In this document: positions 4,634 to 13,478 of the stretch, one piece after another | Numbering within the stretch: the stretch's first letter is position 1 | Layout: each line of letters starts with the position of its first letter | Origin: Entrophospora sp. SA101 | Lineage: Eukaryota > Glomeromycota > Glomeromycetes > Entrophosporales > Entrophosporaceae | Direction of reading: 5' to 3' | NCBI GenBank assembly: GCA_958430865.1 | Contig: CAUDNR010000387.1 | Location: forward strand, 14,629 to 28,106 | Length of the DNA stretch: 13,478 nt | Translations under genes and position numbers: made by a program | Notes under the pieces: generated by a model | What the model saw: only the letters and a program-made list of their open reading frames with translations | Database searches by the model: none | What the model was told of the DNA's origin: nothing

Positions 4634-4767
4634 TAAATTATTTTAGTACTTTTTTTACTTTAAAAGTGGAAAAGCTAACAATATTTGTCAAAAGATTAAA
4701 CTTAATGACAGTAAGGGGACAAATTAACAAGTGGTGAAGTAACAAAGGTAATTTTATTCTAAATATT

Positions 4768-5883
4768 TTATTCATTGCCAGTATAGATTGGTCTTGGGCA
4801 AGTGATATCTTTGAATTCATTTCTAACAAATGGATGAATATTCTGGTAAAGGTATTCTGCCTTTTGTAATCCAAAGGAGGTGGTGTTAAGACTAAAATAG
4901 ATAAAGATTTAATCTCTTCAAAAATATCTGCTTTCTTAGTTTTCAATAAATTGAATTCAGTAAAAGGACCATTAGCAACTTCTTGAACTTTCACTGTACC
5001 AAGATTAGATGATTCAAAAAGAAAATGTTGATATTTCTGTATACTTGGTAATTTCTTAAAATAAATTCCCAAAATAGCTTTAATATCTAAGCATTGAAAA
5101 CCTTTTCCACCTTCATAACACTGAGTTTTATTTAATCCAGCTGGACTAGACTTTTTTATTACCTCAACTACATGACTCAGACAGTCTACTCTTGTTCTTC
5201 TATAGAGTTTTTTAATCATGCCGAAGTTACCATCACATTTGAATTTTGTATGTCCAGGAATCATGAAATTCAATTCAATGCTTTCATAATAACCACAAAT
5301 TACCAAATGTAAATAAAATCAAATAGTTGTATTATTTTTATTTTGTCCACCAGCATTATCACAAGTAATCTTTAAATGCTTTTCACCTTTATTCAATTTC
5401 TTGATTCCATCAAAGATCATACTAAGGGTGCCATTAGGACCTTTTCCTATAATTTCATCATCATTAAGAACATAGTTAATTTGCTCCCTTACTGCTTCAT
5501 CTTGAATACCAAATAAATGAACTTTACATGGACTAAGGTAATAAATTTTACTTAATTGTTGATCTAAATGAGGCACATGAACATTTTGGGCTCAATCATA
5601 ACTATAATGTGCAGTAGCATCAATACTGCAATACTGTGTTTTACCCTTTGAATATTTTTGGTGACCAGTTTTTCTTGTTCTTCTGCTAATTTTGTATTTT
5701 TATTATAATAATTTCTTTCTAGTTTGGCTTTAGACAGATCCTCTTTAAATCTTTAGCTTCTTCTTCTTGCTGAGCATTATAATGTAAACCATCTCTAAAA
5801 TGTTGATGAGTATCACACAAGTCAGTTCTTGGACTCATAATTTGAATTTCTGGTGTCAATTGATGTCACAATTTTCTGAATAA
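4768..5883 (-). pseudogene. Transposase-like (fungal repeat family) gene, 5'-truncated, with TGA at Trp positions
   Basis: Read leftward from just below an in-frame TAA at 5884-5886. Segments in order: FRKL-W-HQLTPEIQIMSPR then TDLCDTHQHFRD; a helical EDLSKAKLERNYYNKNTKLA; GKTQYCSIDATAHYSYD-W-AQ; VHLFGIQDEAVREQINYVL; ITCDNAGGQNKNNTTI-W-FY; ESIELNFMIPGHTKF; GMIKKLYRRTRVDCLSHV; KKLPSIQKYQHFLFESSN. The CDNxGGQNKN and IxGHTKF...G.IKKLYRRT motifs recall a multicopy transposase/nuclease-like family I remember from Rhizophagus (assignment from memory, no search). Each bare W above is a TGA (5866-5868, 5592-5594, 5319-5321); no TGG is present. One-base shifts occur near 5745, 5645 and 4862. After the last shift the frame ends EFKDITCPRPIYTGNE at TAA 4768-4770. 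The N-terminal part of the family appears to be missing, cut off at the minisatellite border. Confidence 0.65.
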
Positions 5884-8599: not shown

Positions 8600-9292
8600 C
8601 GTTTTATTAGTATTATGAACTTTCAATCACTAAGGCTTCTGGAAAATCGTCACATTTATAAAATTATTAGAGGTTTTGATCAGGATATATTTGTAGAACA
8701 GTGCTATGGAGACAGAATCTTTATTTCATACAAATTTTTCGGAAGTTGCAATAGATAGAAGTATAATGATAAAGAAAGAAATTTTCTGTATTTCGAATGA
8801 GTTTTTTAATGCCACTGGTATTTTTAATCCATTAAATCTTTCCATAGCTCTAATCTATATTACATTTACTATCTTGTACACTAATTTGGTGTCTATATCT
8901 TTGAAAACGGAGGAGGAGTAGTGGTTTGAAAACAGCATGTTTTATCAGCGTTTTATTAGTATTATGAACTTTCAATCACTAAGGCTTCTGGAAAATCGTT
9001 ACATTTATAAAATTATTAGAGGTTTTTGATCAGGATACATTTGTAGAATAGTGCTATGGAGACAGAATCTTTATTTCATACAATTTTTTCGGAAGTTGCA
9101 ATAGATAGAAGTATAACGATAAAGAAAGAAATTTTCTGTATTTCGAATGAGTTTTTTTACGTCACTGGTATTTTTAATCCATTAAATCTTTCCATATCTC
9201 TAATCTATATTACACATACTATCTTGCACACTAACTTGGTGTCTATATCTTTGAAAACGGAGGAGGAGTAGTGTTTTGAAAACAATATGTTT
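8600..9292. repeat. 350-bp tandem duplication (two copies)
   Basis: Copy 1 is 8600-8948 and copy 2 is 8949 to about 9292, roughly 95 percent identical. Both begin CGTTTTATTAGTATTATGAA and contain the same 71-codon + ORF (8706-8921 and 9056-9271, starting METESLFHT and ending SLKTEEE). Across the ORF I count ten substitutions producing seven amino-acid changes and only one silent change. That is not the pattern of a conserved protein. The minus strand is also partly open (FNGLKIPVALKNSFEIQKIS), broken by TAG and TGA. I interpret the unit as noncoding or long-dead repeat DNA. Confidence 0.8.
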
Positions 9293-10584: not shown

Positions 10585-13184
10585 TCAGAGTTCTGAAAGC
10601 TCTTTGACTTTATTATCAAAATCTTCTTGCAAGTGATCAATAGTACTGGGATAACTGAAAGAATTACTGTCTTCATTTTTTTGTTGCCCATAATTTTCCT
10701 CTCTATCAACTTTATCAACTATATTTGAGCCTGAAATCATTACATTAAGCATTTTTTCAACATATTGAATATCAGGCCTGCTTTTTGGGTCATCCTGCCA
10801 ACATGCTAGATACAAGTAAATTATCAAAAATTTAATGTATTTAAATATATAGTTTTTAAATACATATATAGATTTTTTACCTTTGTATAAATTAATGTAT
10901 TCATCAGGTGTATTAGGAATAGGTTCCTCACGAAATCCTTGAGAAATATCATACATTAAAGCAGCATGTTGTTGATGATGATTACTAAAAGGTGGTTTGT
11001 TACTAGTCAATTCCCATAATAAAACACCCACACTGTATACATCTGATTTTTTATTTGGCTTGCTATTATACTTGAAACATTGTGGGTCAATATAAGGCAG
11101 CACTCCTGCTAATTGGAATGCTGAAGTAGCTGTAAGTTCAAGTATTTTACGGGAAAATCCAAAATCTGCCAATTTTATGGTTTTTTGATGAACCAAGATG
11201 TTGTTTGAATGCTTTTCAAAAAAAGATAAACATTATTAAATATAATTTTTTTTTAAAAATAATAGGTTTATTATTTATTACCAAATCTCGATGGATAATA
11301 TTGTTTTCATGTAGACACAAAACAGATGATGCAATCTCATATGCAAATTTCAGCTTTAGATCCCAACTAATTGATTCTTGTAGGTAGCTTCTCAGTGTTC
11401 CACTATCTGCATACTCAAGGACCAATAAATATCTCTCTTTGCCTTTATATATAAATATAAATATTAGTTAATGGAGAAAATCAAAATAGGAAATAATTTA
11501 AACATACTTTCATTCTTAGTGACACCATAGAAATGAATAATATTTTGATGATGATTAACTTTACGTAACAATTTCAACTAGTTGAACCAATTGTTATCAT
11601 TAGTTGAAAATTTTTTTTAATTCACAACCAAAAATATATTATAATTTACCTCATTAGTAATTTCTTTCATATTTGTTATACCATGTTTATAGGATTTCAA
11701 GGCACAAATACTGCTATTATCCAATGTTGCCTTATAAACTTTTCCAGAATAACCTGAACCAATTTTTTGAATATTTTTAAACCTACTACCATAATCATAA
11801 AAATTAATGTGTTCCTTCTGAATTGCCTCATCAAGCCATCCTGACCAATTATCCTTAGATTTATCAATAGTTACTTTATTTTCATTGATCATTCTATTGT
11901 TTGGCTCATCCTTTGTTTCTTTGCTTGCTTGACTAATTGGAGCAGATGATGATGATTTGGATAATTGTAGTGAAGAAATTTCCTGTAGTTCTTTAATTTT
12001 AAATTCATCATTATTATTATTATGTGTTGTAAAAGTTAATTTATAATATAATACTTACGCTCTATGGAATAAAAAATAAAATTATTTAATTAGATGATGT
12101 CTTAATAATGTTTATTTTGTGTTGTAAAAGTCAATTTATAATATAATACTTACGAGCTATGAAATAAAAATAAAAATAATTAATTAGATGATGTTTTAAT
12201 AAAGTTTATTTTGTGTTGCAAAAGTTAATTTATAATATAATACTTACAAGCTATGAAATAAAAATAAAAATAATTAATTAGATGATGCTTTAATAAAGTT
12301 TATTTTGTGTTGTAAAAGTTAATTTATAATATAATACTTACCAACTATGAAATAAAAAAATAAAATTATTTAATTAGATGATGTTTTAATAAAGTTGTAA
12401 AAGTTAATCTATAATATAATACTTACCAACTATGAAATAAAAAATAAAATTAATTAGATGATATTTTAATAAAGTTTATTTTGTGTTGTAAAAGTTAATT
12501 TATAATATAATGCATACCCTCTATGAAATAAAAATTAAATTTACTTAATTAGATGATGTTTTAGTAAAGTTTATTTTGTGTTGTAAAAGTTAATTTAATA
12601 CTTACCCACTATGAAATGAAAAATAAATTTACTTAATTAGATGATGTTTTATTAAAGTTTATTTTGTGTTGTAAAAGTTAATTTATAATATAATACTTAC
12701 ACCCTAGTTATTATAATGTAATAAAAAATAAAATTATTTAATTATATGATGTCTTAATAATGTTTATTTTGTGTTGTAAAAGTTAATTTATAATATAATA
12801 CTTACACTCTATGAAATAAAAAAATAAGTTTATTTAATTAGATGATGTTTAGTAAAGTTTATATTATGTTGTAAAAGTTAATTTATAATATAATACTTAC
12901 GCTCTATGAAATAAAAATAAAAATTATTTAATTAGATTGATGTTTTAATAAAGTTTATTTTGTATTGTAATAGTTGACTTATAATATAATGCTTACCCTC
13001 TATGAAATAAAAAATAAATTTATTTAATTAGATGACGCCTTAATAAAGTTTATTTTGTAAAAGATTTATTTACCTTTAGCTAAATATTGTTTTATTATAA
13101 AGTAATATTAAATTATGATGTAAAATCCTTTTACTATTACTATGTATTTTTAAAATAGTGCAAGAAAAAAATACCTTCATTCAT
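10585..13184 (-). CDS. TKL-type protein kinase with an N-terminal micro-exon array (390 aa predicted)
   Basis: Catalytic exons: 11650-11990, 11508-11577, 11282-11442, 10881-11211 and 10585-10805, joined by GT-AG introns of 72, 65, 70 and 75 nt, all frame-consistent. Upstream are the start exon 13175-13184 (ATG at 13182-13184, in-frame TAA 39 bases before it, A-rich start context), one 6-nt and eleven 3-nt micro-exons. The total is 1173 nt, 391 codons including TGA at 10585-10587. Residue landmarks: Ser/Lys-rich tail about 20-60; glycine loop GSGYSG 94-99; ATP-binding Lys 115 (CALKSY); helix-C Glu about 130; HRDLHSNN from 204; DFG 223-225; GVLPYIDP in place of APE; DVYSVGVLLWEL; CWQDDPKSRP. 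All catalytic residues are present, so an active Ser/Thr or dual-specificity kinase is expected. Trp is TGG and TGA is the stop, i.e. standard code. No transmembrane or signal segment; substrate unknown. Confidence 0.88.
11991..13174 (-). other. Tandem micro-exon array: 11 units, each an intron plus a 3-nt exon
   Basis: Going 5' to 3' on the minus strand, the predicted exons are: CTAAAG 13074-13079; AGG 12997-12999; AGC 12901-12903; AGT 12806-12808; GGT 12701-12703; TGG 12606-12608; AGG 12518-12520; TTG 12427-12429; TTG 12342-12344; CTT 12248-12250; CTC 12154-12156; AGC 12059-12061. Each 3-nt slot is preceded by an acceptor, mostly TTTCATAG, and followed by GTAAGTAT or a variant (GTATGC, GTAAGC). 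Introns measure 74-102 nt, and the last (11991-12058, acceptor AAAG) 68 nt. Most contain CTAAT, a branch-point-like motif, about 30 nt before the acceptor, then a T-rich tract. All introns are phase 1, matching both the start exon (ends GAA-G) and the kinase exon (begins AA-CTA). Full inclusion adds AKEEQWLEVVASQ at residues 4-16. Splicing itself is predicted, not observed. Confidence 0.75.
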
Positions 13185-13283: not shown

Positions 13284-13478
13284 CAGTCAAACCTCGCCAC
13301 AGTGAATTCATGGTTCCAGCTATACATGTCGTCAAAATTAAAAGTCATGTGACGCAATTAGTTTAGTGTGAGACGCATTGACGCAGACGCAAGACGCAGA
13401 TGCAATTCGTGACGCAAGACGCAATTCGTGACGCAAGACGCAATTCGTGACGCAAGACGCAATTCGTGACGCAAGACG
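13284..13478. mobile_element. Left terminus of a third pogo-like MITE, truncated by window end
   Basis: The end CAGTCAAACCTCGCCACAGT is preceded by TA (13282-13283) and matches the termini at 7079 and 9840. The right end is not in the window, so the length is unknown. The 19-bp repeat array lies inside or beside it. Confidence 0.65.
13402..13478. repeat. GC-richer 19-bp tandem repeat running off the window
   Basis: GCAATTCGTGACGCAAGAC recurs with exact 19-bp spacing at 13402, 13421, 13440 and 13459, continuing to the last base. Looser GACGCA hexamers start near 13350 and look like the seed from which the array grew. The base composition differs sharply from the surrounding AT-rich DNA. Confidence 0.9.

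Follow-up and report, generated by a model that had tools for sequence, protein, structure and literature searches.

Can a gene carry a run of consecutive exons that are each a single codon long, and are all of these exons joined and translated? The question is raised by a gene on the minus strand of a 13,478-nucleotide (nt) stretch of DNA from Entrophospora sp. SA101 (contig CAUDNR010000387.1, G000:C363:14629-28106), the full stretch around a predicted kinase gene and referred to here as the window. The gene is modelled as a start exon, a 6-nt exon, eleven 3-nt exons set in a tandem array, and five kinase exons. Joined, these give 1173 nt, or 390 amino acids and a stop (391 codons), with no internal stop codon and phase 1 throughout; this layout and open frame had been put forward in a preliminary description of the window, and all coordinates match letter for letter on the minus strand. 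The open frame of the window gene proves little by itself. That the arrangement goes beyond chance is argued by its recurrence across the genome (a 101-megabase assembly of 2123 contigs), from which 38 arrays were parsed, and by the scarcity of stop codons at the predicted junctions. Judged from sequence, it is probable (at roughly 0.86) that this Entrophospora-type arbuscular mycorrhizal fungus has a kinase gene family with consecutive 3-nt exon arrays, in which all triplets are kept in order.

The evidence that carries this reading lies at the joints between triplets. In phase 1, a junction codon takes its first base from the end of one triplet and its other two from the start of the next, ~91 base pairs (bp) away in the DNA. 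The pair tests cover units with an acceptor AG and free of N, in pairs 60 to 135 nt apart. Labels of the form L0xx denote array stretches fetched from the same genome; L015 and L016 are omitted from the pair tests and likewise from the lag and unit counts, while L032 and L019 are omitted only where stated, post hoc. In a first set of 24 entries, 22 of them used, a single stop occurs among 336 distinct adjacent pairs, against a mean of 16.8 and a lowest value of 6 in 10,000 shuffles within arrays; phase 2 of this set has 40 stops versus 43 expected. A later set of 12 loci has 4 stops in 136 pairs, where shuffling gives 10.5 on average (P 0.002); L032 accounts for every one of them, which leaves 0/91 elsewhere. 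Over all pairs, 5 of 477 junctions are stops in forward order versus 34 in reversed order, or 1 of 432 versus 30 without L032. The asymmetry persists when each exon pair is counted once, at 1 versus 22 of 245 without L032 (Fisher p 3e-12) and 3 versus 24 of 267 with it (1.4e-10). Permuting triplet order within arrays gives an expectation of 21.5 against the 1 observed without L032 (minimum 9 in 5000), and of 27.0 against the 5 observed with it (minimum 14). Stop is also the most depleted junction codon (1 observed, 23.4 expected, without L032).

The depletion is strong for direct neighbours and much weaker or missing at greater distances. Without L032, stops number 1/458 at lag 1 and 13/412, 18/368, 15/328, 12/288, 5/249, 7/212 and 4/178 at lags 2 to 8, which amounts to 58/1396 (~4%) for lags 2-5 pooled and 2-3% for lags 6-8. 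The sole phase-1 stop outside L032 falls in L019. In the kinase of L019, HGN and DLR replace the HGD and DLG of its relatives, and the gene is for that reason probably decaying. No cause other than the joining of neighbours in a translated RNA was seen for stop avoidance at adjacent joints, in order, and the reading that adjacent triplets are kept, joined in genomic order and translated is thereby supported. The preliminary description had left two readings side by side, a genuine micro-exon array and a ladder of recursive splice sites. The avoidance of stops in forward and not in reversed order supports the former; a ladder that discards its triplets predicts no such avoidance and is disfavoured.

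Exon length points in the same direction. The repeated unit consists of an intron of ~91 nt (GTAAGT ... CTAAT ... AG) and nearly always exactly 3 nt of exon, with donors and acceptors nearly uniform across all units. Of 455 strong donor matches chosen regardless of acceptor, 429 are separated by precisely 3 nt from the closest [CT]AG upstream. The other 26 were inspected by eye: ten have 3 nt once the donor is re-anchored (including TGG of the window and AGT of L019), another six show this length behind AAG as the acceptor, and the rest are mutated units or non-units. A genome-wide search for TTCATAG, 0-30 free bases and GTAAGTATTATA returns 63 matches, a count that covers this one acceptor type and takes the near-identical contigs C852, C982 and C1846 separately. 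The gap is 3 nt in 61 of them, and the two exceptions have gaps of 7 (3 plus a doubled GTAA) and 1. The reversed control pattern has no match genome-wide. Intron length is free by comparison, as the 473 distinct introns have a median of 91 nt and fall into modulo-3 classes of 166/162/145. A CTAA[TC] motif stands 12-48 nt ahead of the acceptor in 75% of introns, and the ~90-bp unit of acceptor, 3 nt, donor and CTAAT first described in the window is found across the family. By length, these exons lie well within the ~30 nt or less that defines a micro-exon, with use of their splice sites inferred from the avoidance of junction stops. They differ from zero-length recursive splice sites in having 3 nt between acceptor and donor and in behaving as if translated.

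The window array is one of many. Used as a DNA query against its own genome, it has at least 99 matches on at least 36 contigs, its own included (40 of 126 candidates scored). Forty-three stretches were fetched and gave 40 parsed entries, or 38 non-duplicate arrays once L015 and L016, near copies of L014, are removed; together these hold 564 units. An unbroken run of at least 3 units is present in 37 arrays and of at least 10 in 25. The longest runs are 32 (L014), 30 (L025) and 28 (L013), with 46 in the atypical L032. The last of these (G000:C262:1900-7000, minus strand) lacks the usual start exon within the fetched stretch.

A single-intron query has at least 400 matches in the genome (40 of 150 candidates scored) and leads to six further places. 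L044, L045 and L049 precede kinase genes of the usual kind, while L048 lies in a kinase gene of another subfamily, as three units amid the ordinary coding exons of a longer gene. L044 likewise has three units only, and phase 1 fits at both loci (junctions by eye). Elsewhere, the array of L020 follows one kinase domain and precedes a second kinase-like fragment. The two remaining places, L046 (C661) and L047 (C440), are stray copies of the intron unit that resemble each other, with no gene within the printed stretch and with two acceptor-like ends that lack a triplet.

The ends of the arrays are shared as well. In 18 of 34 arrays, the start exon ATGAATGAAG followed by GT (one with C) precedes the first parsed donor by no more than 450 nt, several stretches ending too early to include it; variants occur in L022, L027 and L019, and L044 has the start exon too. 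Exon 2 is 15 nt long in 16 of the 34, compared with 6 nt in the window. On the other side, 23 of the 34 arrays lead into a reading frame of either LQEISS type (window, L021) or KEFKER type, L018 and L020 run into other kinase-like open reading frames (ORFs), and the remaining nine stretches are too short, rich in N or without such a frame. In all 23, the first usable acceptor is in phase 1, with motifs picked by hand and acceptors less than 45 nt from the donor left out. Together with the phase-1 start exon, this bears out the agreement of phase at both ends that had been claimed for the window gene. Behind the array, eleven relatives (L011, L012, L013, L017, L019, L029, L037, L039, L041, L042 and L049) have a site at which an acceptor abuts a donor, AATTGAAG followed directly by GTAAA, starting 79-105 nt past the last triplet. 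A zero-length ratchet step is one candidate explanation of this site, the remnant of a unit that lost its acceptor another; both are unproven.

Several observations weigh against the reading of a translated array. Conservation of the splice signals (donor 0.94-0.998, last three positions 0.86-0.97) is barely above that of the intron middle (mean 0.92, median 0.95), and intron conservation is no evidence here because whole introns are alike and the parser also favoured AG. Even with a parser of that preference, the acceptor AG is missing in 10 of 564 units, and a few donors are mutated. Some arrays have identical blocks in common and are not all independent, a bias against which the count of distinct pairs serves as a guard; the mosaic of such blocks between paralogues could itself be a product of repeat mis-assembly. 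Phase 2 also has a slight shortage of stops, with 48 observed where 61 are expected (P 0.006) when L032 is left out and 55 where 68 are expected when it is included; composition may therefore account for a minor share of the effect. In L032, stops number 4, 7 and 0 in phases 1, 2 and 0, respectively. This array was excluded only once its stops had been seen; it may be dead, or another gene that uses phase 0.

Variation among the triplets bears on how the arrays arose. The first and third triplet positions are the most variable examined (1.92 and 1.86 bits), whereas the second (1.47 bits) is like some of the inner intron columns (1.5 bits) and the first six donor positions have 0-0.47 bits. The 513 units scored hold 43 different triplets, and A and C are avoided at the second base. 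Of 432 codons made by the arrays, 372 have T or G as their third base, versus 209 of 375 in the kinase exons of the window, an odd usage. In a comparison of 399 units (L015, L016 and L032 left out), triplets differ by 0.52-0.70 per site at any intron divergence, close to the random value of 0.68, and simple neutral tandem duplication of intron plus codon is rejected on this ground. Even where the flanking introns are more than 97% alike, triplets differ by 0.52-0.62 per site (514 pairs), and neighbouring triplets match just a little more often than expected (56 times versus 42, sd 5.5). Low intron divergence may reflect nearness to a common consensus and not recent copying. Nearly random triplets between alike introns suggest a diversification of codons that would be proof against frame loss. 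Blocks of identical units that paralogues have in common break off abruptly: the likeness of L012 and L017 extends as far as the acceptor of unit 5, and L011 and L013 agree in their last eight units.

These patterns leave some room for an introner-like origin, in which mobile introns were placed every 3 nt in a pre-existing coding exon and the alternative of tandem duplication of intron plus codon does not apply. The near-unrelated triplets between introns less than 3% different and the scant excess of equal neighbours are what it expects, and the intron family does occur in other gene contexts (L048, L020) and as stray copies (L046, L047). Random insertion would, however, leave exons of 6, 9 or 12 nt, and none is present among the 455 strong donors. 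The third-position usage of the arrays is also unlike that of cut-up ordinary coding sequence, and intron 2 has only the 3' half of the unit in common (by eye). Such an origin is accordingly rated unlikely, though worth keeping in view. A similar rating applies to combinatorial skipping, in which the triplets are genuine exons that are left out in many different sets, so that each gene yields many in-frame isoforms. The near-uniform donors and acceptors would make skipping easy, and the frame survives every skip; yet the stop frequencies of ~4% at lags 2-5 and 2-3% at lags 6-8 mean that skipped products lack the protection enjoyed by the full product. Rare or tolerated skipping of triplets could still take place.

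The junction-stop test disfavours, along with the triplet-discarding ladder, two further readings. If the array were one long intron or a 5' leader, with the start exon spliced directly to the kinase exon and no triplet in the messenger RNA (mRNA), the frame would be kept regardless, as every small exon is in phase 1 and has a length divisible by 3. Discarded triplets would nonetheless give no cause for stop avoidance at adjacent joints, nor for an exon length fixed at 3 while intron lengths are free, and this possibility is improbable. Least credible of all is satellite-like repeat or pseudogene debris with splice motifs by chance. The tandem repeats are AT-rich, and L046 and L047 stand without a gene in the printed stretch, but the 3-nt exons found genome-wide, the phase agreement at both ends, the kinase domains downstream and the avoidance of junction stops all speak against it.

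In the window, the tandem array of intron and 3-nt exon units occupies 12017..13058 (period 94, 11.1 copies, Tandem Repeats Finder score 1386), with the gene running on the minus strand from high to low coordinates. The start exon ATGAATGAAG, followed by gt, lies at 13175..13184 and ends in phase 1. Intron 1 (13080..13174) falls outside the repeat family of the array, by eye, and leads to the 6-nt exon 2, CTAAAG (13074..13079), which in relatives is often 15 nt, CTAAATTCTATAAAG or close to it. The eleven 3-nt exons, checked in the spliced model, are AGG (12997..12999), AGC (12901..12903), AGT (12806..12808), GGT (12701..12703), TGG (12606..12608), AGG (12518..12520), TTG (12427..12429), TTG (12342..12344), CTT (12248..12250), CTC (12154..12156) and AGC (12059..12061). 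The acceptor of GGT is ataactag, unlike the usual cat-ag, and both acceptor types alternate among relatives. The stretch for residues 4-16 of the predicted protein begins AAGAGGAGCAGTGG.

The last intron (11991..12058) ends at AAAG/AA (slash at the junction), the first AG past the donor from which a phase-1 frame leads into the kinase. This non-pyrimidine acceptor makes the final junction the least certain join of the model, and the 3' part of the intron resembles the coding sequence of relatives (DEFKIKELQEI-like). The kinase exons, placed by the spliced model and Pfam on the minus strand, comprise a first long exon from LQEISS to the start of the kinase domain (11650..11990), a second exon (11508..11577), a third that ends in HRDL (11282..11442), a fourth with HSNN and DFG (10881..11211) and a last that includes the stop codon (10585..10805).

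The product is a kinase by the curated cut-offs of domain models of the PK_Tyr_Ser-Thr type. The spliced window protein matches PF07714 at 5.9e-50 (170 bits, cut-off 23.1) and PF00069 at 8.5e-49 (167 bits, cut-off 31.7), and its translation carries the catalytic motifs HRDLHSNN (HRD) and DFGFS (DFG). ORF pieces beside the L012, L018, L020 and L048 arrays likewise pass kinase models; the assignment is by Pfam for these four and the window and by eye for the remaining loci. A protein search with the first 90 residues of the window protein has five database matches, all from Entrophospora, an arbuscular mycorrhizal fungus. One of them, P0003 (Entrophospora sp. SA101, labelled partial), is identical over 81% of these 90 residues. 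It starts with LQEISSLQ, inside the 11650..11990 exon and directly behind the array, most likely lacking its own start because the array went unrecognised. The array peptide and the start MNEAK are absent from all five matches. Searches with the N-terminus of another subfamily and with the gene of L048 gave no match at E 1e-3. In two other Entrophospora matches, P0001 and P0002, the region after the array position is tandemly repeated (DEFKIKELPQLSKSPPSAPISQDSKETKDEPN-like), and the N-terminal region therefore varies by ordinary protein repeats too.

How might such arrays be spliced? A 3-nt exon can hardly hold the factors for both of its splice sites simultaneously, and removal of the introns one by one, in a ratchet-like manner, is a probable route for this reason. 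The spliceosome would take out the ~91-nt introns by intron definition, to which their length, the GTAAGT donor and the CTAA[TC] motif are suited, each step adding one codon to the upstream exon and freeing the next donor. In the main product every triplet would be retained in genomic order, which would give the kinase a variable segment, mostly near its N-terminus. It is less sure that units are gained, lost and exchanged by recombination within the alike introns, a hypothesis that rests on the mosaic blocks. Recombination of this kind cannot break the frame because each unit is one whole codon in the same phase, and the array might then act as a codon cassette that varies the length and sequence of the segment between paralogues. 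That the cassette is a device by which single codons are gained, lost, shuffled and mutated in frame, giving a hypervariable recognition or regulatory peptide, is a tentative proposal. Its logic, if true, is comparable to that of other hypervariable receptor families.

Known systems come close to these arrays from several sides. Recursive splicing removes a ladder of paired acceptor-donor sites stepwise and leaves nothing in the mRNA; the abutting AG and GTAAA behind the array in eleven relatives is alike, whereas the 3 nt of each step are apparently kept and translated. Introners are one intron family in many copies and genes; here too one family has many copies in many genes, and its spread to unrelated genes is a possibility. 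Introners are dispersed singly between ordinary exons, however, and are not known to have fixed 3-nt exons between them. Schistosome micro-exon genes (MEGs) have runs of tiny symmetric exons that vary without loss of frame, but these exons are ~6-36 nt, are not known to derive from one tandem unit and encode secreted proteins. The exons of aphid bicycle genes exceed one codon in length, are not known to form tandem repeats of a single intron unit and encode most of the protein, whereas the exons reported here are one codon each and their array encodes a short segment beside a kinase. A kinase product sets the window gene apart, by description, from both the MEG and bicycle families, which are taken to be non-kinase. 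Bicycle genes have many small internal exons, nearly all in phase 2, and a fast-diverging protein, with more than 100 micro-exons in a 'megacycle' gene (PMC9168663). Many small exons almost all in one phase are a common trait, although the phase is 1 in the window family.

Isolated micro-exons show that 1-3 nt exons can be spliced precisely. One account lists isolated 3-nt micro-exons in Drosophila homothorax (micro-Ex8), troponin T and NCAM and a 1-bp exon in Arabidopsis APC-11, and states that most micro-exons keep the frame (PMC7392893). The exons described there are single and some are alternative (PMC7392893), whereas those reported here stand 3-32 in a row (46 in L032), in dozens of genes, and are apparently constitutive. 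SP7-like effector genes of Glomeromycotina have tandem repeats and a conserved intron; the repeats are within the protein, unlike in the window family, and the accessible part of the source mentions neither a micro-exon array nor a kinase (PMC11333574). No description of a run of consecutive 3-nt exons was found in the open-licence literature, subscription papers lying outside that scope, and the earlier statement that no such run was known agrees with this. The architecture of one-codon exon arrays is rated categorically new, though its machinery is the ordinary spliceosome; on a cautious view, it may be an extreme form of micro-exon genes.

The rest of the window holds features of other kinds. 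At 4638-5576 on the minus strand, two ORF pieces match DUF7869, one at 5e-8 and the other, which falls below cut-off, at 0.016. They may belong to a gene that is broken or split by an intron, for which a mobile-element origin is a guess. An inverted repeat with 81-nt arms, 94% complementary and 26 nt apart, spans 2126-2313, and a direct duplication of ~350 bp, 94-99% alike, spans 8600-9292. A 19-bp tandem repeat, GACGCAAGACGCAATTCGT, begins ~200 bp upstream of the start exon and runs to the end of the window (13393-13478). The window has no Rfam match at the gathering score.

If the reading of a translated array is true, these genes mark an extreme of exon size and number, with a protein segment built codon by codon and introns outweighing exons by about 30 to 1. 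The array family would challenge the view that two splice sites interfere with one another when they are separated by a few bases. The arrays would also offer a natural system in which to ask how dozens of near-identical introns come out without skipping, and in what order. That such genes can escape annotation is illustrated by the deposited P0003, which is labelled partial and starts right behind the array. Finally, variable triplets between alike introns suggest that these plant symbionts might possess a source of peptide diversity that is proof against loss of frame.

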